Below, piece by piece: positions 132 to 17,197 of a stretch of 17,197 nucleotides of DNA (position 1 is the stretch's first letter; every line of letters starts with the position of its first letter). The stretch covers positions 1 to 17,197 of the forward strand of contig JAHEHW010000008.1 of NCBI GenBank assembly GCA_024639745.1. The letters are read 5' to 3'. Below the pieces are notes generated by a model. The model was not told the DNA's origin and searched no databases. It was given only the letters and a program-made list of their open reading frames with translations. A program made the position numbers and the translations under genes. Source of the stretch: Salaquimonas sp. (GTDB lineage: Bacteria; Pseudomonadota; Alphaproteobacteria; Rhizobiales; Rhizobiaceae).

Positions 132-173
132 GCCCAATAGGCCCTTTCATTTCGCCTTTGTGGTTTATTGGGC
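132..173 (-). terminator. Candidate terminator after the left-hand binding-protein gene
   Basis: Perfect 8-base arms GCCCAATA (132-139) and TATTGGGC (166-173) can pair around a 26-base loop. On the minus strand the structure begins at the TAA stop of the binding-protein gene and is followed by GTTTTC, a short T-run. The long loop makes it weaker than a textbook intrinsic terminator. Confidence 0.35.
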
Positions 174-1307
174 TAGCCAAGCCTGGAACCTCTGGTCCAA
201 ATCATCACGATGATCGGCCCACCATTCGTAATTGTAGAGAAAGGCGTTTCCCGCGTTTTTCGGATCGGTTGGCATGTGAGGACCCATATCAATGCCGAGT
301 TCTGCGTGCTTTCCGACGAGCGGCGCTGAGGATTTTCGAGCCGGGCCGTATGAAATATACTTTGCCTGATCCGCCAGGCGCTGCGTGTCGGTTGCGAACC
401 TGACGAAATGAAGCGACCGGTTTAGGCGTTTTCTTGGAAGGCCTGCCGGGATTATCCAGCCTCCGAAATCAAATACCTGGGCATCCCAGAGCATAGCGAC
501 CGGTTGGTCCTGCTCTTCGATAACGGAAAAAAGCCGGCCGTTATAGGTCGATCCCATGACAACTTCGCCATCGGCCAGAAGCTGCGGCGTTTCGGCGCCC
601 GCCGACCACCAAATCACCTCGTCCTTGATTGTTTCCAACTTGGCGAGTGCGCGATCAACACCCCCCCGGGTGGAAAGAACGTCGTAGATCTCATCTTTCG
701 GAATACCATCGCAGAGCAGGGCCCATTCGAAATTGTTGATCGGACGCTTCTCCAACGATCGTCGGCCGGGAAACGTTTCGGTATCAAAAACTGCGCAGAC
801 ACTGTTGGGTGTCTTGCCGCCCCATTCTTCAACATCGCTGCGATAACCGAAAGTGGTCGAGTATACGATATGAGGAGCAATACACGGCGTTATCAGCAAA
901 TCGCCAAAGTCTTCCGAAGCGGAGCTGCCGTCCGGAGCCGGTGCCAGCTGTCTATCCGCATCGATTTCGATGGCTAGCCCTTCGTCGCAAAGGCGGATCG
1001 CATCAGACGCCACCACATCGACAACATCCCAGGTGACATTGTTGGCTTCGGACATGGCGCGAAGTTTCGCGACGGCTTCGGCAGACGACTCTTCATTGAC
1101 GACTTCGACGCCGGTCAATTCCACGTACGGCTCGATATACGCATTCATCTGGGAAGCGGAATAAGCACCGCCCCAGGAAACAACCGTTATCTCATCGGCG
1201 CAGTCGCCGCATTCTGGAAGCGAATTTCCGAAGGAGAAATAGGGGATAATCAGTATCGGAGTCGCGACCAAAAAACCGGAAATTTTTCTGACGAGATTGA
1301 AAGGCAT
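165..1307 (-). CDS. Orphan polyamine-type ABC transporter substrate-binding protein (PotD/COG0687-like)
   Basis: This is a periplasmic binding protein of the spermidine/putrescine class, 380 residues from the ATG at 1307. A GTG three codons upstream (1316) is also possible; neither has a convincing ribosome site. The N-terminus has Arg-Lys (residues 7-8) and then a hydrophobic stretch to about residue 27, a signal sequence. The mature part opens with ITVVSWGGAYS, the first strand typical of the family, and residues 241-260 (PQLLADGEVVMGSTYNGRLF) match the family's ligand-proximal helix and strand. Six cysteines (33, 36, 107, 142, 171, 199) would allow disulfides, which is unusual for PotD. 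No permease or ATPase adjoins it. It lies 220-230 bases downstream of the dehydrogenase gene and beyond that gene's terminator, so it is probably transcribed separately. Its ligand is not evident; a polyamine or other small amine is inferred from the family. Confidence 0.85.
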   Translation of the reverse strand: MPFNLVRKISGFLVATPILIIPYFSFGNSLPECGDCADEITVVSWGGAYSASQMNAYIEPYVELTGVEVVNEESSAEAVAKLRAMSEANNVTWDVVDVVASDAIRLCDEGLAIEIDADRQLAPAPDGSSASEDFGDLLITPCIAPHIVYSTTFGYRSDVEEWGGKTPNSVCAVFDTETFPGRRSLEKRPINNFEWALLCDGIPKDEIYDVLSTRGGVDRALAKLETIKDEVIWWSAGAETPQLLADGEVVMGSTYNGRLFSVIEEQDQPVAMLWDAQVFDFGGWIIPAGLPRKRLNRSLHFVRFATDTQRLADQAKYISYGPARKSSAPLVGKHAELGIDMGPHMPTDPKNAGNAFLYNYEWWADHRDDLDQRFQAWLAQ

Positions 1308-1477
1308 TGATACCACATTTTAAAGGCAAACTGTTGAGGAGTGTATGTGTTCCTGGACAGTCAATTCAAGGGGTTTGCCTTCCAGCCTTTAATCCGAGCC
1401 GCAATTCTGGAACGCCAGGTCGATCCGAAGACTGGCTCAAAACAGCTTGACCCGAAAAGCAATTAAAAAGTGAATCT

Positions 1478-1536: not shown

Positions 1537-2682
1537 CTAAAGCGCAGCTTCGAAAAGGGAGAGGACGTGTTCGCGCGTCAGTTTGACAGGGTTGCCACCA
1601 GTACTGGGGTCGCGAAGCGCCGCCTCAGCCAGCATATTAAGGTCCGGGTCCTTCACGCCGAGATCCTCAAGCTTTTTCGGAACCCCGAGTTGATGGTTGA
1701 AGGCGTCGACGAATTCGCAAAAGCCATCGAAACCTCCGCTAATGCCTAGATACGCTGCCACGCCATCGAAACGCCCTCGGATGGCATCGGCATTGAACTT
1801 CAATACAGCCGGCATGAAGACGGCATTCGTCGTACCGTGATGTGTATGATACACCGCACCAATCGGGTGGCTCAGAGCGTGGATCGCACCGAGGCCTTTC
1901 TGGAAGGCCGTTGCCCCCATTGCTGCAGCGCTCATCATGTTCGCGCGTGCTTCGATATCGGAACCATCCTCATAGGCTCTCGGCAGATAGTCCTTCACAA
2001 GCCGCATGCCTTCTAGCGCAATACCCTGGCTCATTGGGTGATAGTGAGGTGAGGAAAAGGCTTCGACGCAATGGGCAAAGGCGTCAAGCCCGGTTCCGGC
2101 AGTAATCGATTTCGGCATGCTGACCGTCAACTCGGGATCACAGATAACCACCGCAGGCAGCATTTTGGGATGGAAAATGATCTTCTTTTCATGAGTCTCG
2201 GAGTTGGTGATGACACCCGCCCTGCCGACCTCGGAGCCCGTACCCGCCGTTGTGGGGACCGCTACGATCGGTACGATTGCATCAGCGTCTGCGCGGGTCC
2301 ACCAATCGCCTATGTCTTCGAAATCCCAGACCGGACGCGTTTGTCCTGCCATGAATGCGACGGTCTTGGCTAGATCGAGACCCGATCCACCACCGAATGC
2401 GACCACGCCATCATAGCCACCTTCCCGGAAAATCTTGAGGCCAGCTTCCAGGTTGGCTTCCGTGGGGTTGGGATCAACTTCCGCGAACAGAGCGCGGCCA
2501 TGCCCAGCCTCCTCGAGCACGTCGAGCGCAGTTTGCGTGATCGGCATTTTCTTTAGACCGCGGTCGGTAATCAAAAGGGGCCGTTCCATTCCGGCGGCCC
2601 GGCACGCATCCGCCAGCTCCTTGATGCGCCCTGCGCCAAATCGGATCGAAGTTGGGTAAGACCAGTTCCCGGTAAGCGTCAT
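1537..2682 (-). CDS. Iron-containing alcohol dehydrogenase (Fe-ADH, group III)
   Basis: A 381-residue NAD(P)-dependent alcohol dehydrogenase of the FucO/AdhB type, predicted to oxidise a primary alcohol to its aldehyde in the cytoplasm. FGGGSGLDLAK (96-106) is the family's glycine-rich nucleotide-binding loop, and PTTAGTGSEV (143-152) is the second conserved loop. The metal ligands are visible as Asp200 and His204 in GLDAFAH, His268 and His282, with the spacing seen in FucO. The ATG overlaps the TGA of the aldehyde dehydrogenase gene (ATGA), so the two are probably translationally coupled. With the ligase and ALDH upstream, the likely substrate is the hydroxyl end of a gamma-glutamylated amino alcohol; this is inference. 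The family assignment is secure, the substrate is not. Confidence 0.93.
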   Translation of the reverse strand: MTLTGNWSYPTSIRFGAGRIKELADACRAAGMERPLLITDRGLKKMPITQTALDVLEEAGHGRALFAEVDPNPTEANLEAGLKIFREGGYDGVVAFGGGSGLDLAKTVAFMAGQTRPVWDFEDIGDWWTRADADAIVPIVAVPTTAGTGSEVGRAGVITNSETHEKKIIFHPKMLPAVVICDPELTVSMPKSITAGTGLDAFAHCVEAFSSPHYHPMSQGIALEGMRLVKDYLPRAYEDGSDIEARANMMSAAAMGATAFQKGLGAIHALSHPIGAVYHTHHGTTNAVFMPAVLKFNADAIRGRFDGVAAYLGISGGFDGFCEFVDAFNHQLGVPKKLEDLGVKDPDLNMLAEAALRDPSTGGNPVKLTREHVLSLFEAAL

Positions 2683-4058
2683 GCTTTGACTTTCCTGAAA
2701 TGATAACTCTTCGGACGGGTTAGATTATGATAGCCGATTTCGGACAGGGCGCCGCCGCGGCCGGTCTGTTTGCAGCCGGTCCAGCAAAGCGCAGGATCGA
2801 GATAGTCTGCGCGGTTCATGAAGACGGTACCCGTTTCGATTTCCCGGCCTATCCGTGCTGCGCGCTCCGCGTCCTGCGTCCAGAGCGAAGCGGTTAGGCC
2901 GTAGACGCTATCGTTCATCAACGCAACCGCTTCATAGTCATCCTTCACCGACATGACGCCAACGACGGGTCCGAAACTCTCATCCCGCATGACTCGCATC
3001 TGATGCGTCACATTGGTAAGCAATTGAGGCATCAGATAGGTTCCGCCGTCATCCTCAGGGAAGTGCGCGGGGTCGATCGTCGCCTTGGCGCCGTCGCGAA
3101 CCGCCTCCGCTGTCTGGGCACGGACTTCCTCCGCGAAGCGTTTGTTGGCCATTGGGCCAAGGGTCGTTTCCTGGTCGAAGGGATTACCGAGTTTCAGGTT
3201 GTTTACCCAGGTCACGGATTTTTCGACGAAATCATCGAAAAGGTTTTCATGGACATAAATGCGCTCGATGCCGCAACAGCACTGACCGGCATTAAACATC
3301 GCGCCATCCATAAGCACATCGACCGCCCAATCAAGATCGGCATCCTCCATTACATATCCCGGGTCCTTGCCACCCAATTCGAGGCCGATAGGCGTAAAGG
3401 TCCCGGCTGCCGCCCGTTCGATCTTCGCGCCCGCCCCGGTCGAGCCGGTAAAGTTGATGAAGTCGAAAGCGCCGTCCGCGATCAAATTTTCGGTGGTCTC
3501 ATGATCGAGAAAGAGATTGACAAAAACATCTTCTGGAACGCCAGCCTCTTTGAAGGCACGGACAATCCGCTCGCCCACGAGAAGGGTTTGCGTAGCGTGT
3601 TTTATCACAACCGTATTGCCGGCAATAAGGGCGGGTATGATCGTGTTGATTGCCGTCAGATAAGGATAGTTCCACGGTGCGATGATGAACACGACGCCGT
3701 GCGGCTCGCGCTCGATACGACGTTCGAACTGCACCGAGTCTTCGCTGACCAAAGGCGCAAGTGCCTTTTCCGCAATTTCGATCATATAATCCGTACGTTC
3801 GTTCACGCCGCCGAACTCGCCCCCATAACGAACCGGCCGCCCCATCATCCAGGCCAGTTCCGGCACGACCTCTTCCGACATTTGATTGAGGCGGGAGATG
3901 CCTGCCTTGACGAGAGCCATACGCTCTGCGATCGGCCTGCGGGCCCATTCCTTCTGTGCGGCACGTGCAGAGGCGACCGCTTTCGCAGCATCGCCAGCGG
4001 ACATGGTTTCCCTCTCCGCAAAAACCGATCCGTCGACCGGCGAAATGCATTTCAACAT
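2679..4058 (-). CDS. Aldehyde dehydrogenase (NAD(P)-dependent, PuuC-like role)
   Basis: A 459-residue enzyme of the ALDH superfamily that oxidises an aldehyde to the acid. The start is the ATG at 4058, one base after the ligase's TGA and preceded by GAAAGG; a longer open frame to 4145 would run back into the ligase gene. Motifs: APWNYP with the oxyanion Asn130, the Rossmann segment FTGSTGAG (203-210), LELGGKDP with general base Glu227, and FNAGQCCCG with catalytic Cys261. Three consecutive cysteines (260-262) at the active site are notable, though neighbouring cysteines occur in other ALDHs. It sits between the ligase and the alcohol dehydrogenase and overlaps the latter by four bases. By analogy with PuuC it would oxidise a gamma-glutamyl aldehyde. 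Substrate is inferred from context only. Confidence 0.93.
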   Translation of the reverse strand: MLKCISPVDGSVFAERETMSAGDAAKAVASARAAQKEWARRPIAERMALVKAGISRLNQMSEEVVPELAWMMGRPVRYGGEFGGVNERTDYMIEIAEKALAPLVSEDSVQFERRIEREPHGVVFIIAPWNYPYLTAINTIIPALIAGNTVVIKHATQTLLVGERIVRAFKEAGVPEDVFVNLFLDHETTENLIADGAFDFINFTGSTGAGAKIERAAAGTFTPIGLELGGKDPGYVMEDADLDWAVDVLMDGAMFNAGQCCCGIERIYVHENLFDDFVEKSVTWVNNLKLGNPFDQETTLGPMANKRFAEEVRAQTAEAVRDGAKATIDPAHFPEDDGGTYLMPQLLTNVTHQMRVMRDESFGPVVGVMSVKDDYEAVALMNDSVYGLTASLWTQDAERAARIGREIETGTVFMNRADYLDPALCWTGCKQTGRGGALSEIGYHNLTRPKSYHFRKVKA

Positions 4059-4059
4059 G

Positions 4060-5430
4060 TCAGTACCTTTCAAAGCCGCGGGCGAGATCCCAATCTGTAA
4101 CCCGGCGGTCGTATTCCAACTGCTCCCATTCGGCGGCATGAACATAGTGTTCGATCACCTCGTCTCCGAACGCCGCGCGCAGCATGTCAGAGCCCTTCGC
4201 CGCTTCGGCTGCCGCACGAAGGGTTCCCGGAATCCCGCGGATGTTCTCAGCCGAGTAGGCATCGCCGGTAAATTCCGGCTCAAGCTCCAATTTCTGTTCG
4301 ATGCCAGCGAGCCCCGCTGCAATCTGACTGGCGAACGCTAGATAAGGGTTGAGGTCAGCCCCGCCAATTCTGTTTTCAATACGAATGCCTTTTGTCGCCT
4401 CACCCACCAGCCGGAAACCCGCTGTACGGTTATCCCGACTCCAAACGGCTTTGGTCGGCGCGAAGGTTTGCGCGACGAAGCGCTTGTAGGAATTGATATT
4501 CGGAGCAAGGAACATTGCAACATCTGGCACATAGGCCAGCAGGCCGGCGATATAGTGCTTCATCACATCGGACATGCCGTGGTTAGCTTTCTCATCAAGG
4601 AAAGCCGGCGTTTTGCCATCGCCAGACCAAAGCGATTGGTGGATATGGCTGGACGACCCGGCTGCGGCGTAATCGTATTTCGCCATAAAGGTAACGGCCC
4701 TGCCCTTGCTCCAGGCGATTTCCTTGACGCCGTTCTTGGTCAGAACGTGATTGTCGGCGGCGGTAAGCGCATCCGCGTATTTGACGTTGATCTCTTCCTG
4801 GCCAGCCCAGGCTTCGCCCTTCGAGTTTTCGACCGGAATGCCGGCACCGCGCAGCCCGACCCGGACGGCACGCATGACGTCTTCTTCCTTGGTGGTCTGG
4901 AAGATATGGTAGTCCTCATTATAGGGGCTGATCGGCGTCAATGTCCTGTAGCCGGAGGCATGGGCTTCTTCGAAGGTTTCCCGGAACAGATAGAATTCAA
5001 GCTCTGACGCCATCATCGCGGAAAAACCGGCATCTTTGAGCCGCGCAAGCTGCCGCTTGAGAATGGCACGCGGCGATACCGCGATTTCCTCATGGCCGAG
5101 GTGATCAAGCGTATCGCACAGAACGAGCGCCGTTCCGGGCTGCCAAGGAAGAAGGCGTAGAGTGGAGAGATCAGGCTTCATCATATAGTCGCCATAGCCT
5201 TGCTCCCAGGATGCGGATTTAAATCCTGGGATCGGCTCCATGTCGACATCGACGGTCAGAAGGTAATTGCACGAATGGGTTTCGTGGACGCCCGCATCGA
5301 GAAAATGCGGCGCATCGAAACGCTTGCCCATCAAACGGCCCTGCATATCGATCTGGGCCATGATGACGGTATCGATCTCGCCGGCATCGACTGCTTTGGT
5401 CAGGTCACCCAATGAAAGAGGCGCGGTCAT
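4060..5430 (-). CDS. Glutamine synthetase-family gamma-glutamyl-amine ligase (PuuA/GlnT-like)
   Basis: A 456-residue member of the glutamine synthetase superfamily. Such enzymes join the gamma-carboxyl of glutamate to ammonia or an amine using ATP. Motifs: the N-terminal KRF element (36-38), metal ligands in ASELEFY (Glu143, Glu145) and GQEEINVKY (Glu212, Glu213), SSSHIHQS (259-266), NSYKRF (313-318) and IENRIGGADLNPY (351-363). It lacks the NLYDLP region that carries the adenylylated tyrosine of assimilatory GlnA, and has NIRGIPGTL there instead. This points to a catabolic gamma-glutamylamine synthetase (PuuA, IpuC or GlnA4-type). AAAGGA lies eight to nine bases before the ATG. It follows the TRAP binding-protein gene after an 84-base gap containing a hairpin and is followed immediately by ALDH. 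The amine substrate is unproven; ethanolamine or a similar amino alcohol fits the neighbours best. Confidence 0.9.
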   Translation of the reverse strand: MTAPLSLGDLTKAVDAGEIDTVIMAQIDMQGRLMGKRFDAPHFLDAGVHETHSCNYLLTVDVDMEPIPGFKSASWEQGYGDYMMKPDLSTLRLLPWQPGTALVLCDTLDHLGHEEIAVSPRAILKRQLARLKDAGFSAMMASELEFYLFRETFEEAHASGYRTLTPISPYNEDYHIFQTTKEEDVMRAVRVGLRGAGIPVENSKGEAWAGQEEINVKYADALTAADNHVLTKNGVKEIAWSKGRAVTFMAKYDYAAAGSSSHIHQSLWSGDGKTPAFLDEKANHGMSDVMKHYIAGLLAYVPDVAMFLAPNINSYKRFVAQTFAPTKAVWSRDNRTAGFRLVGEATKGIRIENRIGGADLNPYLAFASQIAAGLAGIEQKLELEPEFTGDAYSAENIRGIPGTLRAAAEAAKGSDMLRAAFGDEVIEHYVHAAEWEQLEYDRRVTDWDLARGFERY

Positions 5431-5453
5431 GTTTTACATCCTTTTCATGCGGT

Positions 5454-5480
5454 GGCCGGCCCTATAAGGCCGGCCTTTTT
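5454..5480. terminator. Strong intercistronic hairpin between the TRAP binding protein and ligase genes
   Basis: Two copies of GGCCGGCC (5454-5461 and 5468-5475) flank a CTATAA loop. The 8-bp stem is entirely G-C. On the plus strand it is followed by TTTTT (5476-5480), so it would be a classic terminator for transcripts entering from the left. On the minus strand, the operon direction, the T-run becomes an A-run before the stem. There it is more likely a 3' stabiliser or attenuator that keeps binding-protein mRNA above ligase mRNA. Confidence 0.6.
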
Positions 5481-5514
5481 CATAGCACGATGGCTATCGC
5501 ATCTTTTTTCTGAC

Positions 5515-6549
5515 TCAGGTGTAGCGGTAAGGCCGCCCGGCCTTTTGCATGTCGGCATTGTACTTTTTGAAGATCTCGACAACCTTCGCCTTGGTCTCGG
5601 ACTCGGCTGCGATCTCATCCCAGAATTCGCGTGCCGCGGTTTCGACCTGATCCCACTCCGCATCAGGGATTGATGTTAGCTCCATCTTGGTTCCGTTGAC
5701 GCGCAGGTCCGCCTCACCGCCCCAATACCAATACTGGCGATAGTAGTGCGATTGCTCGCAGCAGACTTCGAATAGAGTCTTGAGATCGTCAGGCAGTTCA
5801 TTCCAGCGTTCCTGGTTGGCAAAGAAGTGGCCGATCCACGCACCGGAAATGTTGTTAGTCAGGAAGTAGTTGGTCACATCCGCCCAGCCAACGGTATAGT
5901 CCTCGGTAATACCCGACCAGGCAATGCCGTCGAGTTCACCGGTCTGAACAGCGACCTCGATATCTTCCCATGGCAGCGTTACCGGCACAACGCCGAACTG
6001 GGCCAGGAAGCGACCTGCCGTCGGGAAGGTGAATACGCGCTTACCTTCCAGGTCTTTCAGTGAGCGGATCGGGTCTTTCGTAGCAAAGTGGCAGGGGTCC
6101 CATGCACCGGCAGAGACATGTTTGACGCCGACCTTCGCATATTCCTCTTCCCAGATTTCCTTTAGCCCGTAGCGCGAGAAAAGCACCGGAACGTCCAGCG
6201 AATATCTGGAGCCAAACGGGAAATAGCCACCGAACACGGTAACCTCGGTAGGCGACGCCATGGAGTCATCGTCCGACTGAACGGCATCGATCGTCCCGCG
6301 TTGAAGCGCCTGAAAAAGCTCTCCTGTCGGTACCAGCTGATCCGCATAGAATACTTCGATCTGCATGCGATCGCCGGCAATCTTGTTGAACATTTCGATT
6401 GCAGGATCGAGCACATGCTCTGCAAGCGCGGGACCTGCATAGGTCTGCAGACGCCACTTGATCGTCGATTGAGCAATCGCTGGTGTGGCAAGTGCGGCTG
6501 CCGGCGCCGCAGCAGCGGCACCCTTGATGAAACTACGTCTAGTCGTCAT
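5515..6549 (-). CDS. TRAP transporter substrate-binding protein (DctP family), Tat-exported
   Basis: A 344-residue periplasmic binding protein of a tripartite ATP-independent transporter. The ATG at 6549 follows AAGGAGAAAGAC, a strong ribosome site; a longer open frame to 6618 would add a leader without support. The N-terminus TTRRSFIKG followed by alanine-rich sequence to about residue 27 is a twin-arginine signal peptide. GELFQALQRGTIDAV (76-90) and the segment around 168-210 (DLEGKRVFTFP, then VQTGELDGIAW) place it in DctP. In most family members the motif after GLK carries an arginine that grips a substrate carboxylate; by eye, Phe173 occupies that place. Asp93-Asp95 lie just after the 76-90 motif. 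This suggests a ligand that is not a carboxylate and may be cationic. Encoded directly after its two membrane subunits. Confidence 0.92.
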   Translation of the reverse strand: MTTRRSFIKGAAAAAPAAALATPAIAQSTIKWRLQTYAGPALAEHVLDPAIEMFNKIAGDRMQIEVFYADQLVPTGELFQALQRGTIDAVQSDDDSMASPTEVTVFGGYFPFGSRYSLDVPVLFSRYGLKEIWEEEYAKVGVKHVSAGAWDPCHFATKDPIRSLKDLEGKRVFTFPTAGRFLAQFGVVPVTLPWEDIEVAVQTGELDGIAWSGITEDYTVGWADVTNYFLTNNISGAWIGHFFANQERWNELPDDLKTLFEVCCEQSHYYRQYWYWGGEADLRVNGTKMELTSIPDAEWDQVETAAREFWDEIAAESETKAKVVEIFKKYNADMQKAGRPYRYT

Positions 6550-6601
6550 GTCTTTCTCCTTAGGTTTCGACAAAATTAACACTCTGCGCTTCTGACGTCG
6601 C

Positions 6602-7927
6602 TTATTTCTCATAAACAAATTCCGGCAGCCAAAGAGCGATCTGCGGCATGATCATCACTAGCATTAGAGCGAATATCATTACCCCCACGAACGGGATGAT
6701 CGACCGGTAAATATCGTAAATTCCGATTTCGGGCGGCGCCATGGCCCGCATCAGAAAAAGGTTATAGCCGAAAGGCGGGGTCATATAGGCGATCTGGGTC
6801 GTGATCGTGTAGAGAACGCCGTACCATATCAGATCGAACCCGAGCGCCCCGACAAGCGGTATATAAAGCGGTGCGACGATCACCAGCATTGCGGTGTCGT
6901 CGAGAAATGTACCCATAAGGATGAAGCTGAGCTGCATCAGGATAAGGATCATAATGGGTGAAAAGCCTAGCTTTTCGGTGAACAGGCTCTCGATCGCTTT
7001 GACGGCGCCAAGCCCATCGAAAACCGCACCGAAGGCAAGCGCAGCCAGAATGATCCACATGAACATGCAGGTGATGCCGAGGGTCTTGCGGACGGATACC
7101 TCGAAAACCTCCCAGGTCATTCGCCGCTTCAGAACCGCTGCAACGAGAGCCGCAATCGCGCCGATCGCGGAACTTTCCACCAACGATGTCCAGCCGTTCA
7201 CGAACGGAATCATCATGGCGAAGAAGATCGCAAACGGCAGCAGCCCGGCAAGCAGCAAACGGTATTTCTCGCCCTTCGGCATGTCCCGTTCCCGTTCATC
7301 AAGGACCGGACCGAGGGAAGGCGTAATACGGCATCGTATGGCGATATAGATGATGAACATCGTTGCCATCATGAGACCTGGCACGATACCGGCGAGCCAG
7401 AGCTGGCCGACAGGTTGGCGCGCAATCATCGCGTAAAGCACCAGCACCACGGAAGGCGGCACCAGGATGCCGAGAGAACTCCCGGCCTGAATGACGCCGG
7501 TAACCATCAATTTATCATATCCCCGGCGTAAGAGTTCCGGCAGGGCGATGGTCGCACCGATCGCCATTCCGGCAACCGATAGGCCGTTCATTGCTGAAAT
7601 CAGCACCATCAATCCAATCGTTCCGATCGCCAGTCCACCGCGCAGGCCACCCATCCAGACATGGAACATTCGGTAGAGGTCGTCTGCGATCCGGCTCTCC
7701 GACAAAATATACCCCATAAATACGAACATGGGCACGGTCAGCAGCGGGTACCATCTCATTAGTTTGATGCTTTGCGAAAAGGCGATGTCGAAACCACCAC
7801 GATCGCCCCAAAGCGCGATAGCGGCAATAACGGCCACGAAACCGATTGCGCCGAACATCCTTTGCCCGCTGAAAAGCAGAACCATCATGGAGGCGAACAT
7901 AAGAAGGGCAATCAACTCGTAGGACAT
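6602..7927 (-). CDS. TRAP transporter large permease (DctM family)
   Basis: A 441-residue, highly hydrophobic inner-membrane protein with about a dozen predicted membrane spans, the ion-driven translocation subunit of a TRAP importer. Family hallmarks include the N-terminal FSGQRMFG element, VPMFVFMGYILSES (67-80), AGSSLGILVPPSVVLVLYA in the first half, and a second repeat with FLDDTAMLVIVAP and TPPFGYNLFL. The start is taken as the ATG at 7927, with AAGGAG eight bases before it; a GTG at 7933 would sit only two bases from that site. The gene overlaps or abuts the small permease gene (stop at 7930) and precedes the binding protein by 52 bases. It works with the adjacent DctQ and DctP proteins; substrate is set by the latter. 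Confidence 0.94.
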   Translation of the reverse strand: MSYELIALLMFASMMVLLFSGQRMFGAIGFVAVIAAIALWGDRGGFDIAFSQSIKLMRWYPLLTVPMFVFMGYILSESRIADDLYRMFHVWMGGLRGGLAIGTIGLMVLISAMNGLSVAGMAIGATIALPELLRRGYDKLMVTGVIQAGSSLGILVPPSVVLVLYAMIARQPVGQLWLAGIVPGLMMATMFIIYIAIRCRITPSLGPVLDERERDMPKGEKYRLLLAGLLPFAIFFAMMIPFVNGWTSLVESSAIGAIAALVAAVLKRRMTWEVFEVSVRKTLGITCMFMWIILAALAFGAVFDGLGAVKAIESLFTEKLGFSPIMILILMQLSFILMGTFLDDTAMLVIVAPLYIPLVGALGFDLIWYGVLYTITTQIAYMTPPFGYNLFLMRAMAPPEIGIYDIYRSIIPFVGVMIFALMLVMIMPQIALWLPEFVYEK

Positions 7928-7929
7928 GT

Positions 7930-8496
7930 TCACAGCTCCTTACCGCGAAGGCGAAGGATGTCCTTGCTGAGTTCCGACAAAGCCTGCAGCAGCATCAGGA
8001 CGAGGCCGAAACACATGAGCGCCTTGATCGGCCATAGATAAGGCCGCCAGATCGTGCGGCTGCGCTCGAGCGTTCCGACATCCTCCGAACCGGTGATCAG
8101 ACCGGCAAAAAAGGACAGCGGATCGGAACCGAAATGACCGAGTGAATAAGCAGTAGAACTCAGACCGCCCCAGAGCATCACCACCAGATAGGTGATCAGG
8201 CAAAATACGGTGATGGCATCGACGAGCGCTTTGCGTCTGACCGACCAGCCATCGTAGAAAAGGTCCATACGCACATGCGATCCCATTTGGATTGCGTAAG
8301 GACCACCGAGAAAAAAATAGGCGATCATCGAAAACTGCGCCACCTCCAGGGTCCAAAGGGACGGCTGATCTCCGAACTTGCTGATCGTTGACCACAGCAA
8401 CACAGCCAGCATTAGGAACAGGCCATACATTGCGATGCGCCCAATGCGATGATTGATGGCATCCACAATTACTATGAAACGCCGCAATACGCTCAT
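7930..8496 (-). CDS. TRAP transporter small permease (DctQ family)
   Basis: A 188-residue, four-span membrane protein that pairs with the large permease. The ATG at 8496 forms an ATGA overlap with the stop of the amidohydrolase gene, so an upstream start in the longer open frame is unlikely. The conserved DctQ segment SLWTLEVAQFSMIAYFFLGG (46-65), followed by HVRMDLFYD, is clear. Between spans three and four lies a long hydrophilic loop (roughly residues 127-155) rich in charged residues. Such longer versions occur in the mannitol/chloroaromatic-type TRAP subgroup, to which I tentatively assign this system. The gene is the second of the operon and is tightly coupled to both neighbours. Confidence 0.9.
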   Translation of the reverse strand: MSVLRRFIVIVDAINHRIGRIAMYGLFLMLAVLLWSTISKFGDQPSLWTLEVAQFSMIAYFFLGGPYAIQMGSHVRMDLFYDGWSVRRKALVDAITVFCLITYLVVMLWGGLSSTAYSLGHFGSDPLSFFAGLITGSEDVGTLERSRTIWRPYLWPIKALMCFGLVLMLLQALSELSKDILRLRGKEL

Positions 8497-9269
8497 GTGG
8501 CTGCCCCCTCTGCAGAAGCGGGCGCCAGATCCGAAAAAGCCCCGTTCAACCAGCTGGCGAGATTCCCGGCCATTTCGCGGCATTGTTCCGGCGTGCTGAT
8601 CAGGTCATTGCGAATCTCGATCATCACGTTCAATAGATCTCTCGACAAGCCATGCCGCTTGAGCGTGTGGGTCACACCGTCGGCAGGGCCGTAGGGTTCA
8701 TTGCGTCGGATCTCAAAACCTGTAGCTGCCTTCAAGACTGAATCGGCAAGACGGGCATCCGCATCGTGAAGGATGCCAATTTCAACCGTTCGCGGTTCAC
8801 CGCGATAAACAGGCGTGAAACTGTGCATCGTAACGAGAGCCTTGAGGTTCGGCTTGGCGTTCAGGGTTTCTTCGACCCGATGCTCGAAGGGCCTGTAATA
8901 AGTTTCAATTCTCAAGGTCTTTTCTTCCGGGGTCAAATTGCGATTGCCCGGGATATCGTAGATTTCACTTCGATCCGGCATCGCATCGGTAGCTTCCGGC
9001 GGGCGATTGCAATCGTAAACCAGCCTCGAGATCAAACCATGGACCAATGGCGCGTCCAGGACTTCCGCAAGGTTCATTGCCGTTTCCAGGGCGCCGGGAT
9101 CCCACGCAATATGGCTGACCCTCGCCTCCGGCGCCAATCCAAGATCCTTAAACCTCGCCGGGACGTGGTTGCATGCATGTTCGCAGATCAGAAGGAGAGG
9201 ATATCGCCCGTCCGGATTGAACGTGCGAACGACCTCTGTTTTTTCACTCTTGGCAGTGTGATTATCCAA
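8493..9269 (-). CDS. N-formylglutamate amidohydrolase family protein (PF05013)
   Basis: A 258-residue cytoplasmic hydrolase. CEHACNHVP (29-37), HIAWDPGA (53-60), TMHSFTPVY (147-155) and the late IEIRNDL (217-223) are diagnostic of the N-formylglutamate deformylase family, whose characterised members cleave an amide or formamide on glutamate. No histidine-utilisation (hut) gene is present, so the usual HutG role has no support here. It is the first gene of the TRAP and gamma-glutamylation operon, and a role in releasing glutamate from a gamma-glutamyl amide, as PuuD does, is an attractive inference. The start must be the TTG at 9269: it follows AAGGGG by seven bases, an in-frame TGA lies just upstream, and no other start codon precedes the CEH motif. 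The 3' end overlaps the DctQ start by four bases. Confidence 0.9.
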   Translation of the reverse strand: MDNHTAKSEKTEVVRTFNPDGRYPLLLICEHACNHVPARFKDLGLAPEARVSHIAWDPGALETAMNLAEVLDAPLVHGLISRLVYDCNRPPEATDAMPDRSEIYDIPGNRNLTPEEKTLRIETYYRPFEHRVEETLNAKPNLKALVTMHSFTPVYRGEPRTVEIGILHDADARLADSVLKAATGFEIRRNEPYGPADGVTHTLKRHGLSRDLLNVMIEIRNDLISTPEQCREMAGNLASWLNGAFSDLAPASAEGAAT

Positions 9270-9459: not shown

Positions 9460-9650
9460 CGCCAGAAATTGCCGACTTACTCAATGACGCTCTTTGGACT
9501 GTGTTTGACAGGAGCGGTTTTTGCGGTTCGCGGATATGCAGCAGATTGAAAAGGCAAGCGATCCGGACCAGTACTGATTTTCAATGCGGTCAGGTAAAGC
9601 GCGCGTTTCATCGGGCCTGAAAGCAATATTACACGGGAGTGCGGAACTAT

Positions 9651-10142
9651 ATGCGGATTCGGTTCTTTGAACAGAAAGACTGGGATGCCGTTTGGCGTAT
9701 CTTGAAACCGGTATTTCGCGCCGGGGAGAGCTATGCTTTTTCCCCTGACATCGATGAAAACGAAGCGCGCAGGATTTGGATCGATGCGCCGGCGGCAACC
9801 TATGTTGCCGTCAGTGACGACGGAGACATTTTCGGGACCTACTATATTAAGCCGAACCAGTCAGGCCCGGGATCACATGTCTGCAATTGTGGCTATATCG
9901 TTTCGGACCGGGCCCGCGGCAAAGGCGTTGCCTCACAGATGTGCGAGCATTCGCAAAGCATAGCACGAGAGATGGGCTTCAGGGCAATGCAGTTCAATTT
10001 GGTCGTTTCGACAAACAAAGGTGCTGTGCACCGTTGGAAATCGCTCGGCTTCGATATTGTAGGCACTCTACCGGGAAGCTTTCTCCATCCTGTTGAAGGC
10101 TATGTCGACGCCTATGTCATGTACAAGACCTTTGTCGAATGA
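9651..10142 (+). CDS. GNAT-family N-acetyltransferase
   Basis: A 163-residue acetyltransferase and one of the few plus-strand genes. The acetyl-CoA pyrophosphate-binding motif is visible as DRARGKGVASQM (around residues 87-98, the R-x-x-G-x-G/A core), after the strand CGYIVS. The C-terminal motif KGAVHRWKSLGFDIVG is typical of GNAT proteins that act on small molecules or on protein amino termini. The ATG at 9651 was chosen over the GTG at 9639 because the GGGAG at 9635-9639 can serve it and the protein then opens MRIRFFEQKD, as in relatives. The acceptor substrate cannot be read from sequence. The gene diverges from the amine operon and could acetylate an amine, but nothing in the sequence shows that. 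Confidence 0.88.
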   Translation: MRIRFFEQKDWDAVWRILKPVFRAGESYAFSPDIDENEARRIWIDAPAATYVAVSDDGDIFGTYYIKPNQSGPGSHVCNCGYIVSDRARGKGVASQMCEHSQSIAREMGFRAMQFNLVVSTNKGAVHRWKSLGFDIVGTLPGSFLHPVEGYVDAYVMYKTFVE

Positions 10143-11931: not shown

Positions 11932-12783
11932 TCAGCTTCTTCTTTGGACCAGGATCATCATGAGCGCTAGCAATGATGACCCTACCATCAACAGCAGCGA
12001 TACCGCGTTCAGGATCGGTGTCGATCCTTCCTTCATCCGGTCGAACATGGTGATGGTCAGAGGTGCGTCCGAGCCAACCAGCATGAGCGTCGTGTTGAAG
12101 TTCTCGAAGCTCATCAGGAAGGCCACGACTCCGGCCCCTATCATGGCTGGCGCAAGATAGGGCAAAGTTATGGTACGAACGGCAGTCAACCGGTCTGCGC
12201 CAAGATTGAGCGCTGCATCTTCAAGCGTCTGGTCAAACTTTTGAAGTCGGGCAGAAATAACGAGTGTTGCAATGGTCGCAATGAAAGAAAACTGCCCCAA
12301 CACAACAAGCCCCAATCCCGGTCTCAGTGTCTCGAGCTCCAAGGAGAAGCCGGACCAAACGGCGTTGGCAATTGTCGAAGAAAAGACCAGTATCGATATC
12401 CCGAGAACGATGCCCGGAACAACCAATGGCAACAGCATCAGCACATAGAGAAAGCCGCGCCCAGGGAACTGATAGCGATTGAACAAGAAGGCGTTCGTAG
12501 TTCCGACAGCTACCGAAAGGATACTCACTGAAACACCGACAATTGTGGAGGTAAGGATCGAGCTGAGTATCGTGCGTTCATGGAAAATGCCAATGATCGG
12601 ACGTGCATCACCGAAAAACCAGGCAAGCGTAAAACCTTCCCACGGAAGGGAAGGAAACTGACTGTCATTGAAAGCGAATATTGCCACAACGATCAAAGGC
12701 ACAGCTAGGTACACAAAGAAAAGAACGACATAGGCTGTGTAGATGAAACGGACAAAACGTGACTGTGGAATCGATGGAATCAT
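11932..12783 (-). CDS. Polyamine-type ABC transporter permease (PotC-like)
   Basis: A 283-residue inner-membrane protein with about six spans, the second permease of the spermidine/putrescine-type importer. The cytoplasmic EAA loop that docks on the ATPase is visible: DAALNLGADRLTAVRTITLP, about 80-90 residues from the C-terminus. FAFNDSQFPSLPWEGFTLAWF after the first span is the usual PotC periplasmic element. The ATG at 12783 is preceded by GAGG; an in-frame ATG at 12816 would overlap the PotB-like gene by 20 bases and is the alternative. It is the last gene of the four-gene operon and works with the adjacent PotB-like permease and PotA-like ATPase. Confidence 0.9.
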   Translation of the reverse strand: MIPSIPQSRFVRFIYTAYVVLFFVYLAVPLIVVAIFAFNDSQFPSLPWEGFTLAWFFGDARPIIGIFHERTILSSILTSTIVGVSVSILSVAVGTTNAFLFNRYQFPGRGFLYVLMLLPLVVPGIVLGISILVFSSTIANAVWSGFSLELETLRPGLGLVVLGQFSFIATIATLVISARLQKFDQTLEDAALNLGADRLTAVRTITLPYLAPAMIGAGVVAFLMSFENFNTTLMLVGSDAPLTITMFDRMKEGSTPILNAVSLLLMVGSSLLALMMILVQRRS

Positions 12784-12796
12784 GATGGGAGCCTCA

Positions 12797-13654
12797 TCAA
12801 CCCATCGTTTTCTCAAGTGTCTGTCCGGTTAGCCGCAGCACGGACCAAACAATGATAGAAGATAGCAGAAGCAGCATGAAGCCGAAGGCAGCGCCCAGCT
12901 CCCAGTTAAACCGCACAATGAACTGCAAATAGATGAGTTCTGTGAACCACAAGCTGTCCTTGCCGCCTAGCATTGTCGGGGTAAGGTAATTGCCAAGCGT
13001 CAACATGAAGACAACAATACTACCTGCAACGATGCCCGGCGCCGCATGTGGGATAATCACCTCTCTAAGGATACTCAGACCGGATCCGCCAAGATCGTAG
13101 GCTGCTTCGATGATCTGATCGTCGAGACTTTCAAGGGTCGTAACAAGCGGCACTACCATGAACAACATAGAGGTATAGACAAGCCCGATCATTATCGCGG
13201 TATCATTGTAGAGCATCTCAACTGGACCACTGACAATACCTGTCCATTGAAGAACGCTGGAGACCAGCCCCGTCTCGCGCAACAGAATCATCCAACCGAA
13301 GGTCCGTACGATCTCCGAGACCCAGAACGGGACCAAACAAAGCAGAAACAGGACGGATTGAGTTCTGCCCTTCGCCATTTTCGCGATATAATAGGAAGCT
13401 GGAAAAGCGATCACGAGTGTAATAAGGGTTGCAAGGATCGACATCGTCGCAGTTCGAACGAAGGTCCAGATATAAAGAGGTTCCTCGAAAAAGGTGCCGT
13501 AATTTGCAAGACTGGACTGATACTGCCTCACGCCGACGCGTTCACGGATCGAAACGAGAAACATGTCGATATGCGGGATGATGATCAGCAGCACCAGCCA
13601 CAGTAAAAGGGGCGTAATCAGAAGGATGAAGCCGATTTTCGTCTCAGTCTTCAT
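12797..13654 (-). CDS. Polyamine-type ABC transporter permease (PotB-like)
   Basis: A 285-residue inner-membrane protein with about six membrane segments. The N-terminus (KIGFILLITPLLLWLVLLII, residues 6-25) is the first span of this family. The EAA loop is EAAYDLGGSGLSILREVIIP, followed by HAAPGIVAG, the contact site for the ATPase. Its ATG overlaps the TGA of the ATPase gene (ATGA), so the two are translationally coupled. It forms the channel with the PotC-like protein. The substrate is probably a polyamine or a related amine, inferred from the family. Confidence 0.92.
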   Translation of the reverse strand: MKTETKIGFILLITPLLLWLVLLIIIPHIDMFLVSIRERVGVRQYQSSLANYGTFFEEPLYIWTFVRTATMSILATLITLVIAFPASYYIAKMAKGRTQSVLFLLCLVPFWVSEIVRTFGWMILLRETGLVSSVLQWTGIVSGPVEMLYNDTAIMIGLVYTSMLFMVVPLVTTLESLDDQIIEAAYDLGGSGLSILREVIIPHAAPGIVAGSIVVFMLTLGNYLTPTMLGGKDSLWFTELIYLQFIVRFNWELGAAFGFMLLLLSSIIVWSVLRLTGQTLEKTMG

Positions 13655-14751
13655 CCATCAGTCCACTTGAAACACCTAGCCTGATCCGTCGTCCAGCCAA
13701 TAGCGACCTCAGCGCCTCTTGCCAGATTGGTCATTTCTCCAGATTGCGGGAGTGCGACCTCAATCGGTTCCAGCTCCTCTTCCGCCTGAAACAGGATATT
13801 GCTCGCAGCACCATTGAAAAGAACGCTGACCACCTTGCCTGACAAGCGATTTCGAAGGTCATCAAGATTTTCGGCTTTTTTTGACAATCGAATCGCCTCA
13901 GGCCTTACGAAGATTTCGACTTGATCACCCGTCATCAGCGAGCTGCCTTGAGAGCTGCTAAAGATCGTTAAGCCGTTCTCCGTCAGTACCTGGGCTTCCC
14001 TGCCCTCGATACGTTCGACTCTACCTATCCATCGGTTGCTTTCACCGACAAAACCGGCAACGAAAGCAGTTTGCGGATTATAATAGAGTTCCTGCCCCGA
14101 TCCCACCTGTTCGAAACGCCCGGTATTCATAACCGCGATCTGATCAGACATGACAAGCGCTTCAGACTGATCATGCGTGATATATACGAATGTCGTGTCG
14201 AACTCCGACTGTAGCGCTTTCAACTCGATTTTCATGTGCTCGCGCAGTTTCAAGTCCAGCGCCCCGAGCGGTTCGTCGAGCAGCAGCACGTCGGGGTTCA
14301 GAATCATGCATCGCGCGATCGCGATCCGCTGTTTCTGCCCGCCTGAAAGTTCGTTGATTTTACGCTGTCCCAGACCCGGAAGGTTGATCCGATGCAGCAT
14401 CTCCTCGACCCGCCGGGCTATTTCAGCTTTCGCCATCCCCTGTCGCCTGAGGCCGTATCCGATATTGTCTGCAACGCACATCATCGGAAAAAGCGCAAGG
14501 TGCTGGAACACCATATTCACCGGGCGCTTGTTGGGAGGCGTATCCAGAACCGATTTCCCGCGGATAAGAATATCGCCACCACTTGGCTCAAGGAACCCGG
14601 CGATCATCCGCATGATCGTTGTCTTGCCGCATCCAGAGGGACCGAGAATCGAAAAGAAGGAGCCTTGCGGTACACTGAACGAAACATCATCGACAGCCTG
14701 CGTCTCGCCAAAGCGCTTGATGAGATGCTGACATTCCAGATCGGGTGTCAT
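13651..14751 (-). CDS. Polyamine-type ABC transporter ATP-binding protein (PotA-like)
   Basis: A 366-residue ATPase that powers the importer from the cytoplasmic side. All nucleotide-binding motifs are intact: Walker A GPSGCGKTT (37-45), Q-loop Gln83, signature LSGGQKQR (135-142), Walker B VLLLDEP (155-161) and the switch His193. Residues from about 240 on form the TOBE-type regulatory region seen in PotA and other carbohydrate/polyamine ATPases. The ATG at 14751 has GAGG in front. The open frame to 14895 runs back through the terminator-like hairpin and the binding-protein gene, so it is not used. A 68-base gap with a strong hairpin separates it from the binding-protein gene, while downstream it overlaps the permease gene. 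Confidence 0.95.
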   Translation of the reverse strand: MTPDLECQHLIKRFGETQAVDDVSFSVPQGSFFSILGPSGCGKTTIMRMIAGFLEPSGGDILIRGKSVLDTPPNKRPVNMVFQHLALFPMMCVADNIGYGLRRQGMAKAEIARRVEEMLHRINLPGLGQRKINELSGGQKQRIAIARCMILNPDVLLLDEPLGALDLKLREHMKIELKALQSEFDTTFVYITHDQSEALVMSDQIAVMNTGRFEQVGSGQELYYNPQTAFVAGFVGESNRWIGRVERIEGREAQVLTENGLTIFSSSQGSSLMTGDQVEIFVRPEAIRLSKKAENLDDLRNRLSGKVVSVLFNGAASNILFQAEEELEPIEVALPQSGEMTNLARGAEVAIGWTTDQARCFKWTDG

Positions 14752-14775
14752 TGCCGCCTCGCCACAAACAGAAAG

Positions 14776-14802
14776 TGGCACCCGCTGGATTGGCGGGTGC
14801 CA
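14776..14802 (-). terminator. Attenuator-type hairpin between binding-protein and ATPase genes
   Basis: TGGCACCCGC (14776-14785) and GCGGGTGCCA (14793-14802) are perfect 10-base arms around a 7-base loop. On the minus strand the structure starts 18 bases after the binding-protein stop and is followed by ACTTTCTGTTTG, only moderately T-rich. It probably causes partial termination or blocks 3' decay, giving more binding protein than membrane parts, as is common in ABC import operons. Confidence 0.65.
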
Positions 14803-14819
14803 TCTTGTTTTCGATACGA

Positions 14820-15896
14820 TCAGTTTGCCGCGTTGACGCGGTCCAGTATGCTGCCTTCCAGCACTTCGAGGCCTGCCGGCACTGGCGGATACCATTTGAT
14901 GTTATCAACGTCTTCCGGAGGGAAACTGGCCTGATATTTTGCCTTCAACTCCGCTGATACGAACTCATCAGCACCCTTGGAAGCGGTGAAATTACCAGCG
15001 ACGTCGGTGATCATCGCAGCAATTTCCGGCTGCATCACGAAGTTGATCCATGCATAGGCTGCATCGTCCGCCTGTCCTTTGGCCGGAAGGACAAAGGTGT
15101 CGATCCAGCCCAGCGCGCCGGATGCGGGAGCGACGAAGGTTATCGAGGGCATATCGGAATTCAGTTTCCATCCGCCCGTGTCCCAAGCCATAGAAGCGAC
15201 GACTTCACCTGACCGGAGCAGATTCATCAGTTCGTCGCCACCGCCCCAATATGCTTTCACATTCGGCTTGCATTCAATTAGTTTGGCCTCGACCTTTTCC
15301 ATGATGTCTTTGTAGGCTGCCTCGTCGTTATATGCTGCAAACGGATCCATACCCATCGAATATGCAAAGCCGATAAGGGTGGGGCGCTTCAGGCGATAGG
15401 ATACTTTCCCAGCAACAGCATCAGAGCACAGATCGATATAATCCTTTACCATCGATGCTTTTTCGGTATCGATAACAAGCCCGCTGGTACCCCACACATG
15501 CGGCACGCCATAGACCTCACCATCAACGGACGTATTACCCTTTGTCGCTTCCAGCATCGAAGGAATGAACTGCGATGAATCTATTTTTGAAAGGTCGATA
15601 GGCTTGTAGATGCCGAACTCGGCCTGCGGGCCAGCAATCCGGTCCTGGCTTGGCTGGGCAAGGTCAAAACCACCACCGCCGGTCGCCCGAAGTTTAGCGA
15701 TCATTTCCTCGTTGTTCGAAAGAGTAACTTCAACTGTATGCCCTGTTTGCTTTTCGAACATCTCGACAACATTGTCGGGAGCATAGCCGCCCCAAGTAAG
15801 GAGGCGAAGGGTGTCCGCTTGAGCCTGCACGGTAAACGCAGAGAGAGTAGCCGATATTGCCAATGCTGTTATTTTCAGATTTCGTTTCTGGTTCAT
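14820..15896 (-). CDS. Polyamine-type ABC transporter substrate-binding protein (PotD-like)
   Basis: A 358-residue periplasmic binding protein, the first gene of the ABC operon. The ATG at 15896 has GGAGAGACGG before it. Residues 1-27 form a Sec signal peptide with likely cleavage after AQA. The mature protein opens DTLRLLTWGGYAPDNVVEMF, the family's first strand and helix, and contains YGVPHVWGTSGLVID (around 128-142) and WINFVMQPEIAAMITDVAGN (around 285-304), both PotD-type signatures. With the ATPase and two permeases downstream it forms a complete importer. It differs clearly from the left-hand PotD-type protein (165-1307) in length, cysteine content and sequence, so the two are not recent duplicates. 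Ligand is not proven; spermidine, putrescine or a related amine is likely. Confidence 0.93.
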   Translation of the reverse strand: MNQKRNLKITALAISATLSAFTVQAQADTLRLLTWGGYAPDNVVEMFEKQTGHTVEVTLSNNEEMIAKLRATGGGGFDLAQPSQDRIAGPQAEFGIYKPIDLSKIDSSQFIPSMLEATKGNTSVDGEVYGVPHVWGTSGLVIDTEKASMVKDYIDLCSDAVAGKVSYRLKRPTLIGFAYSMGMDPFAAYNDEAAYKDIMEKVEAKLIECKPNVKAYWGGGDELMNLLRSGEVVASMAWDTGGWKLNSDMPSITFVAPASGALGWIDTFVLPAKGQADDAAYAWINFVMQPEIAAMITDVAGNFTASKGADEFVSAELKAKYQASFPPEDVDNIKWYPPVPAGLEVLEGSILDRVNAAN

Positions 15897-16034: not shown

Positions 16035-17042
16035 TTACGAGAAACGGGCACGAGTCCGATTCGCGAACGCGACAAGCGACAACATGACGGGAACTTCAAC
16101 CAATACGCCGACAACCGTCGCCAAAGCAGCCCCTGAATTCAGGCCAAACAGACTGATCGCTACCGCTACGGCGAGCTCAAAGAAGTTTGATGTTCCTATC
16201 AATGCACAGGGTGCTGCTATACGGTGCGGCACCTTCCATAAATAAGCAGCAGCATATGCAAGCGCAAAGATGCCGTATGATTGCAGCAGGATCGGAACCG
16301 CAATAAGCGCAATCACGGTTGGCCTTTCCAGGATGACCTCGCCTTGCAGGCCGAAAAGAATAACCACGGTTGCGATCAGTCCTACGATCGACCACGGTTT
16401 GGCTCCACTCTGAAAAGCCTCGATCCTCTCGGCGCTTACTAATCTGACCCGGGTGAGAATGCCAGCTAAAAGCGGCAAGGCTACGAAAAGGACCACGGAA
16501 AGGACCAATGTTTCCCAAGGCACCACGATGTCGGTAACGCCAAGCAGGAAGGCCACGATAGGTGCGAAAGCAACGACCATGAAAGCGTCGTTCACGGAGA
16601 CCTGCAGAAGCGTGTAACTCTCATCGCCATTCGTGAGCTGTGACCAAACGAAAACCATTGCCGTGCAGGGTGCTGCACCAAGAAGTATGAGCCCGGCGAT
16701 GTATTGCTGAGCATCAGCTGGAGCAATCAGATCGGCAAAAACGAATTCGAAAAAAAAGACGGCCAATACAGCCATGGTGAATGGCTTGATCAGCCAGTTG
16801 ACCGCGAGCGTTATGGTCAATCCCTTCGGCTGTCGGAAAACATCTTTCAGAGAGGAAAGATCCACGCCGATCATCATCGGGTAAACCATTGCCCAGATTA
16901 GTACGGCGACAATCAAATTGACCCGCGCCAACTCCATTGCCGCGATCCCTTCGACGAGACCGGAAAAAAGATTTCCAAGGGCTATGCCCGCCAAAATAGC
17001 GAGCGCGATCCACAGCGACAGATATCTTTCAAATATGCTCAA
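16035..17042 (-). CDS. acr3: ACR3-family arsenite efflux transporter
   Basis: A 335-residue inner-membrane protein of the bile/arsenite/riboflavin transporter superfamily with about ten spans; it exports arsenite and in some members antimonite. [17 protein letters not shown] contains the family's essential cysteine (Cys126), and [11 protein letters not shown] carries the conserved acidic residue (Glu316). [18 protein letters not shown] (283-300) is a further signature. The start is taken as the TTG at 17042, giving [14 protein letters not shown] as in relatives; its TTGA overlaps the stop of the MFS gene, implying coupling. The frame stays open to 17129, but that leader lies inside the MFS gene. 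It belongs to an ars operon continuing beyond the right edge, where an ArsR-type regulator would be expected. Confidence 0.93.
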
Positions 17043-17197
17043 GCAGCAACCTCTGTCGTGTCCGGGGCTTGCAATCGGCCTGATGCCAGCGCGCTGATGG
17101 CGACCATCGCTGTCGCAGTACCCAAGCAAAGCGAAAGTCCGCCGATCTGATAGGTCAGCCCGGAAAGCAAAGTACCAATCAGACGGCCACCAGCATT
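17039..17197 (-). CDS. C-terminal fragment of an MFS transporter (ars operon)
   Basis: The last 52 codons of a gene that enters from the right edge. The product begins [20 protein letters not shown], followed by a hydrophobic span and a short charged tail. The N-x-G-R-x-x-G-x-x-x-G-L pattern is typical of the penultimate-helix region of major facilitator proteins, including those found next to arsenic resistance genes. Its TGA overlaps the TTG start of the ACR3 gene. Function as an arsenic-related exporter is suggested only by that neighbour. Confidence 0.7.

Follow-up and report, generated by a model that had tools for sequence, protein, structure and literature searches.

In the Puu pathway of Escherichia coli, putrescine is broken down by gamma-glutamyl capping, oxidation of the free end and hydrolysis of the amide. 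A pathway of similar outline, independent of microcompartments, is known for ethanolamine and is encoded by the eto operon. Here we compare the described systems with a stretch of 17,197 nucleotides from Salaquimonas sp. (Rhizobiaceae; contig JAHEHW010000008.1 of assembly GCA_024639745.1), called the window in what follows, in which seven genes of the minus strand very probably constitute an eto operon. The eto system and the idea of the pathway are both already published, and are not new here.

According to PMC10132767 the operon of Phaeobacter sp. MED193 (Phaeobacter/Roseobacter) comprises genes for an RpiR regulator, GGAH, EtoV, EtoW, EtoX, ETAGA, GAADDH and GETADH. The same source reports that EtoX binds ethanolamine with Kd = 7.88 uM, and that GGAH, EtoX, ETAGA, GAADDH and GETADH are elevated on phosphorylethanolamine. 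For Chromohalobacter salexigens the enzyme families PF00120, PF00465, PF00171 and PF05013 are tabulated in a review (PMC9397018); its pathway is described as 'demonstrated to function' in PMC10132767 but as 'predicted in an in silico approach' in PMC6529630. In Streptomyces the enzyme GlnA4 makes gamma-glutamylethanolamide, and the same later steps are proposed (PMC6529630).

The window contains the following seven open reading frames (ORFs), given in order of transcription. They include the genes of a tripartite ATP-independent periplasmic (TRAP) transporter and of a glutamine synthetase (GS)-like ligase.

8493..9269, minus strand: predicted gamma-glutamylglycine amidohydrolase of GGAH type (FGase, PF05013, 133 bits; TTG start in the mechanical listing)
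7930..8496 (mechanical ORF to 8583), minus strand: EtoV, TRAP small permease DctQ (PF04290, 67.5 bits)
6602..7933, minus strand: EtoW, TRAP large permease DctM (PF06808, 228 bits)
5515..6549 (mechanical ORF to 6618), minus strand: EtoX, TRAP ethanolamine-binding protein with a Tat-type signal (DctP, 72.5 bits)
4060..5430, minus strand: GS-like ligase, predicted ethanolamine gamma-glutamylase, ETAGA (Gln-synt_C, PF00120, 328 bits)
2679..4058 (mechanical ORF to 4145), minus strand: aldehyde dehydrogenase (ALDH), predicted gamma-glutamylacetaldehyde-amide dehydrogenase, GAADDH (Aldedh, PF00171, 399 bits)
1537..2682, minus strand: iron-type alcohol dehydrogenase (ADH), predicted gamma-glutamylethanolamide dehydrogenase, GETADH (Fe-ADH, PF00465, 168 bits)

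None of these frames has an internal stop, and in a Pfam profile search of the seven every match lay above its gathering score. The mechanical starts are probably too early for EtoX, EtoV and ALDH, judging from relatives and from the ribosome-binding context. The start of EtoX at ATG 6549 has AAGGAGA upstream, and the Tat signal model TIGR01409 scores 20.1 bits (cut-off 16.7). EtoV likely begins at ATG 8496, overlapping the stop of the upstream gene, and ALDH at ATG 4058. With these starts there are four-base overlaps at EtoV/FGase, EtoW/EtoV and ADH/ALDH, and gaps of 1 base between ligase and ALDH, 52 between EtoW and EtoX and 84 between EtoX and ligase. An earlier note, made from the sequence, had described a seven-gene operon on this strand with overlaps or short gaps; all its frames are present and their families are those found by Pfam. 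Its 'amidohydrolase' can be given a more specific family, that of N-formylglutamate amidohydrolase (PF05013).

The MED193 locus was recovered in our search (L047) and agrees with the window in all seven families, their order and their orientation, with proteins 51–86% identical. It differs in carrying a divergent RpiR gene beside GGAH and in its ligase, which is 59% identical to that of the window and falls into a different group. The mechanical ORF of EtoW is 500 amino acids in MED193 and 443 in the window. A relative of C. salexigens, C. israelensis (L023), has the full operon as in the window, but with an RpiR gene; apart from EtoX and EtoW its proteins are 53–75% identical to those of the window. 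EtoW is 80% identical to the C. israelensis protein and 60% to that of MED193, and EtoV is 55% identical to MED193 EtoV.

The Streptomyces coelicolor GlnA4/SCO1610–1615 cluster shares the gamma-glutamylation route: its GS-like ligase is joined by two dehydrogenases and by a hydrolase assigned to the formylglutamate amidohydrolase family. In a figure legend of the same source, the enzymes named include a short-chain dehydrogenase and a glutamine amidotransferase (PMC6529630). Where the window has TRAP genes, this system has a putative amino acid/ethanolamine permease, which S. coelicolor itself lacks, and the regulator is EpuRI (PMC6529630).

Compared with solved chains, EtoX gives 674 bits with 4uab/4xf5, while the next chain reaches only 76 bits. 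4UAB is Csal_0678 of C. salexigens in complex with ethanolamine, where Glu220 holds both the amine and the hydroxyl (PMC12410723), and Csal_0678 is described as lacking the carboxylate-fixing arginine of most TRAP binding proteins (PMC4646407). The C. salexigens system is like the window in its binding protein as well as in the four tabulated enzyme families. To place Glu220 we numbered the residues of the C. israelensis orthologue, used in lieu of Csal_0678, from its first. The residue corresponds to E239 of the window's 367-residue ORF, and all 81 EtoX sequences of the alignment, among them the window's, carry this glutamate. EtoX is 86% identical to its MED193 counterpart, and 85–86% identical over the C. 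israelensis and MED193 orthologues.

The four enzymes are also related to those of MED193. GGAH is 51% identical to its counterpart, and its closest solved chain is 2odf (Atu2144, 235 bits); 28 residues are invariant over 71 sequences, E30-H31 and H149 among them. ALDH is 71% identical to GAADDH, with C289-C290-C291, N159 and E256 invariant in 69 of 69 sequences, and the iron-type ADH is 74% identical to GETADH, with D200, H204, H268 and H282 invariant in 68 of 68. We take these residues to have the catalytic roles familiar in the Fe-ADH, ALDH and FGase families, and their conservation fits catalytic competence. The solved relatives of the ligase, 59% identical to MED193 ETAGA as noted, are 11zs (621 bits) and 5dm3 (586 bits). 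It retains what we presume to be the GS catalytic motifs. It lacks the DGSS motif carried by the genome's own GlnA, as would suit an enzyme whose acceptor is an amine and not ammonia.

The resulting pathway would run as follows. Ethanolamine, for example from phospholipid headgroups, would be bound by EtoX and imported through the EtoVW TRAP transporter. The GS-like ligase would join it to glutamate at the expense of ATP, giving gamma-glutamylethanolamide, whose hydroxyl end would be oxidized by the iron-type ADH and then ALDH, via the aldehyde, to gamma-glutamylglycine. The FGase-family amidohydrolase would then release glycine and glutamate, and the glutamate would be recycled. The earlier note had arrived at this route from the sequence, and it matches the route published for MED193 and also proposed for C. 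salexigens and S. coelicolor (PMC10132767, PMC9397018, PMC6529630). Two of its background points agree with the literature: ethanolamine is the ligand of a TRAP binding protein, Csal_0678 (PMC12410723, PMC4646407), and is gamma-glutamylated by a GS-like enzyme, GlnA4 (PMC6529630). A search for EutB in the organism's own genome gave no match, where an E. coli control was positive; as that genome is 77% complete, the absence is weak evidence.

The seven-gene unit described in the earlier note recurs in other genomes. We compared 80 loci, the best-scoring of at least 576 relatives retrieved by EtoX similarity, a choice that favors close relatives. All seven genes are present in the same order and strand in 62 of the 80, and their association is far beyond chance. 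Six of the remaining 18 loci are cut by a contig end (L016, L022, L025, L033, L053 and L064). Of 199 genomes sampled from the window's order, some of them fragmented assemblies, 68 have EtoX, including the organism's own. With that one set aside, 49 of 67 have the ligase gene no more than 4 kb from EtoX, 47 have FGase no more than 6 kb away, and 41 have both. Searching at the level of the class gave ligase matches (E up to 1e-150) in 41 of 385 genomes, and ALDH or ADH lies within the flank of about 1.5 kb in 23 of 29 such loci, the window's own excluded. At one locus (L104) EtoW (76%), ligase, ALDH and ADH are present, with no EtoX match at the expected spot between EtoW and ligase.

Plasmids give further contexts; we inspected 6 of the 35 plasmid records with a ligase match, and their gene tables are incomplete. 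A Paracoccus denitrificans plasmid carries the full operon plus RpiR, and one of P. alcaliphilus the operon without FGase. Plasmids of Sinorhizobium meliloti and Rhizobium leguminosarum have RpiR, FGase, an amino acid permease, ligase, ALDH and ADH, and no TRAP genes. In Aminobacter sp. NyZ550 the four enzyme genes are accompanied by RpiR, and the table shows no transporter beside them. In Ruegeria conchae they are preceded by a gene for a DeoR-type regulator and immediately followed by one for an EamA-family transporter. The enzyme genes thus often remain linked as a module, and it is the transporter that changes. The conjugative Aminobacter plasmid pMET3 (L122:7176-17347) has an FGase-GS-ALDH-ADH module that adjoins bhcRABCD, the genes of the beta-hydroxyaspartate cycle; this proximity would fit assimilation of the glycine or glyoxylate produced.

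Several observations weigh against reading the seven genes as an eto operon. For the source organism we infer every step of the pathway, including all the enzyme activities, and the portions of the open-licence literature on the pathway available to us yielded no direct assay of the dehydrogenase and hydrolase steps. Among the families listed, the four enzymes all stay below the curated NCBIfam cut-offs, and the best such model for the ligase is type I GlnA, at 232 bits against a cut-off of 429. The functions of the four enzymes are therefore assigned from the identity of the operon and from the binding protein. The gene set is not constant either. Twelve of the 80 loci lack some genes although they are not cut by a contig end: five have the TRAP genes only, with the four enzymes unmatched within 10 kb (L021, L051, L074, L081 and L084), L046 has only FGase and the TRAP genes, L024 lacks both dehydrogenases, L040 ADH, L054 ALDH, L012 the ligase, and L013 and L057 FGase. 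Neither ligase nor FGase is near EtoX in 12 of the 67 genomes of the order, three of which have the two together elsewhere, and EtoX falls within the flank in only 10 of the 29 class-level ligase loci. Lastly, the window lacks the usual adjacent RpiR gene, and its ligase lies outside the group of nearly all other eto ligases.

Two of these irregularities can be described further. The locus without a ligase, L012, is from Pseudoruegeria sp. HB172150, and a ligase 74% identical to that of the window lies on another contig (L127). The TRAP-only loci were considered as a sign of another pathway, a suggestion that we rejected: ten chosen neighbor proteins from these five loci and L046 included no EutB or EutC, and matched ABC-transporter parts, a DAO-family oxidoreductase, MoeA, two P450, YcaO, MTTB, or nothing.

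An RpiR gene, a usual but not an essential member of eto loci, adjoins GGAH in 68 of the 80, that is in 68 of the 71 with GGAH, and one of the three exceptions (L026) is cut by a contig end. Searching the window with two RpiR queries gave as best match a 42-residue chance match with E = 1.0. The place of the RpiR gene of most relatives is taken by a divergent gene for a GNAT acetyltransferase (9639-10142, plus strand), of which none of the 80 eto loci has a homologue at E 1e-10. The sole RpiR-family gene found in the organism's 77%-complete genome encodes a protein 27% identical to that of MED193.

The position of the ligase comes from a quick tree without bootstrap that included 70 eto ligases from the 80 loci. 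The window's ligase belongs to a group of 18 rows (SH-aLRT 96), outside the group of 75 rows (SH-aLRT 99) that holds 69 of the 70; L053 is the only one that groups with it. We considered whether a swapped ligase might signify another substrate, and rejected this: the L053 ligase sits in an eto operon, and the ligases that adjoin EtoX in 49 of the 67 genomes of the order, which are outside the tree, are 56–74% identical to that of the window. We therefore read the position of the window's ligase as lineage divergence.

Two non-coding elements were identified in the operon and beyond its end.

5454..5475, minus strand: hairpin in the etoX-ligase intergenic region (5431-5514), found by RNA folding
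1501-1486, minus strand: candidate terminator, a 16-base perfect palindrome followed by TTTATTT, 35 bases beyond the last stop

The hairpin is the stronger RNA feature. The 84-base intergenic RNA folds with −29.2 kcal/mol (z = −4.43), which none of 200 shuffles equaled. The hairpin has no T-run on the operon strand; read on the plus strand, it resembles a terminator and does have one. Possibly it protects the etoX message or reduces downstream expression. The terminator, which the earlier note called clear, is plausible by its position but is not statistically special, as 10 terminator-like sites were found across 10 kb where shuffles give an expectation of 10.8.

Upstream of GGAH the word TATTGACA occurs in 37 of 66 intergenic regions, and is most simply a −35 promoter element. 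A shared operator at this position was rejected: the frequent word is more simply a −35 element, and a guessed operator palindrome was not convincing. The latter occurs with 3–4 mismatches in 23 of the 66 regions (about 5% of shuffles), and its best site in the window has 4 mismatches, equaled or bettered by 84 of 500 shuffles.

Given a ligase outside the characterized group and an RpiR gene gone from its usual place, the operon might have drifted away from ethanolamine use under RpiR control and towards a pathway for a wider range of amino alcohols, with the hairpin after etoX possibly raising the supply of binding protein relative to the enzymes. We regard this as unlikely. The same two features could also be explained if the pathway were unchanged and its main substrate were another amino alcohol, such as 2-amino-1-propanol (alaninol), with alanine produced in place of glycine. 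The second PDB entry for the chain matched by EtoX, 4xf5, which we take to be the complex with 2-amino-1-propanol, points the same way. Yet the close identity of EtoX to the C. israelensis and MED193 orthologues, its invariant ligand glutamate, and the presence of the L053 ligase in an eto operon and of ligases 56–74% identical to the window's beside EtoX in the 49 genomes all argue against alaninol, and GlnA4 is reported to be specific for ethanolamine (PMC6529630). A change of main substrate is therefore quite improbable, and we retain ethanolamine.

A Puu-type operon for putrescine has the outline of a GS-like ligase, an ALDH and an amide hydrolase in common with the seven genes, and a PotF/PotD-like ABC transporter is encoded nearby. 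The seven genes differ in including an alcohol dehydrogenase and an FGase-family hydrolase, without amine oxidase and PuuD: no amine-oxidase or PuuD-type family is among the Pfam matches of the seven genes, in line with the earlier note's view that the alcohol dehydrogenase takes the place of the amine oxidase. Moreover, the ligase scores 200.5 bits with the gamma-glutamylputrescine synthetase model NF045547 (cut-off 650), ALDH scores 201.8 bits for PuuC (cut-off 850), and the binding protein is of the ethanolamine type. We consider putrescine catabolism very improbable here. That plain glutamine synthetase or N-formylglutamate (histidine pathway) enzymes have drifted beside a TRAP transporter, as the family names Gln-synt_C and FGase and the sub-threshold GlnA match of the ligase might suggest, is scarcely credible when the genome has a second and stronger Gln-synt_C protein elsewhere (L089, 463 bits against 329), the ligase lacks the DGSS motif, the HutG model TIGR02017 gives 19.4 bits against a cut-off of 278.75, and the seven genes are conserved together.

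The remainder of the window contains three further features.

165-1316, minus strand: binding protein of the spermidine/putrescine type (SBP_bac_8), standing alone immediately downstream of the operon; 8jv1 is its best solved relative (232 bits)
11932-15896, minus strand: PotF/PotD-like ABC transporter cassette of binding protein, ATPase and two permeases
16035-17129, minus strand: ACR3 arsenite efflux transporter (TIGR00832, 383.9 bits; cut-off 282.8)

At E 1e-10 the lone binding protein has no counterpart in any of the 80 eto loci. For the ABC cassette, only 4 of the 80 (L011, L018, L044 and L066) have homologues of all four parts (58–80%) in the 10 kb on either side of etoX, and we rejected the transporter as an unproven part of the eto system.

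The match to the eto operon bears out a prediction made from sequence. etoX is reported in about 5–10% of ocean bacteria (PMC10132767). Phospholipid-derived ethanolamine is a shared source of carbon and nitrogen, and the Salaquimonas locus adds one more carrier of the eto genes, with a small variation in regulation.

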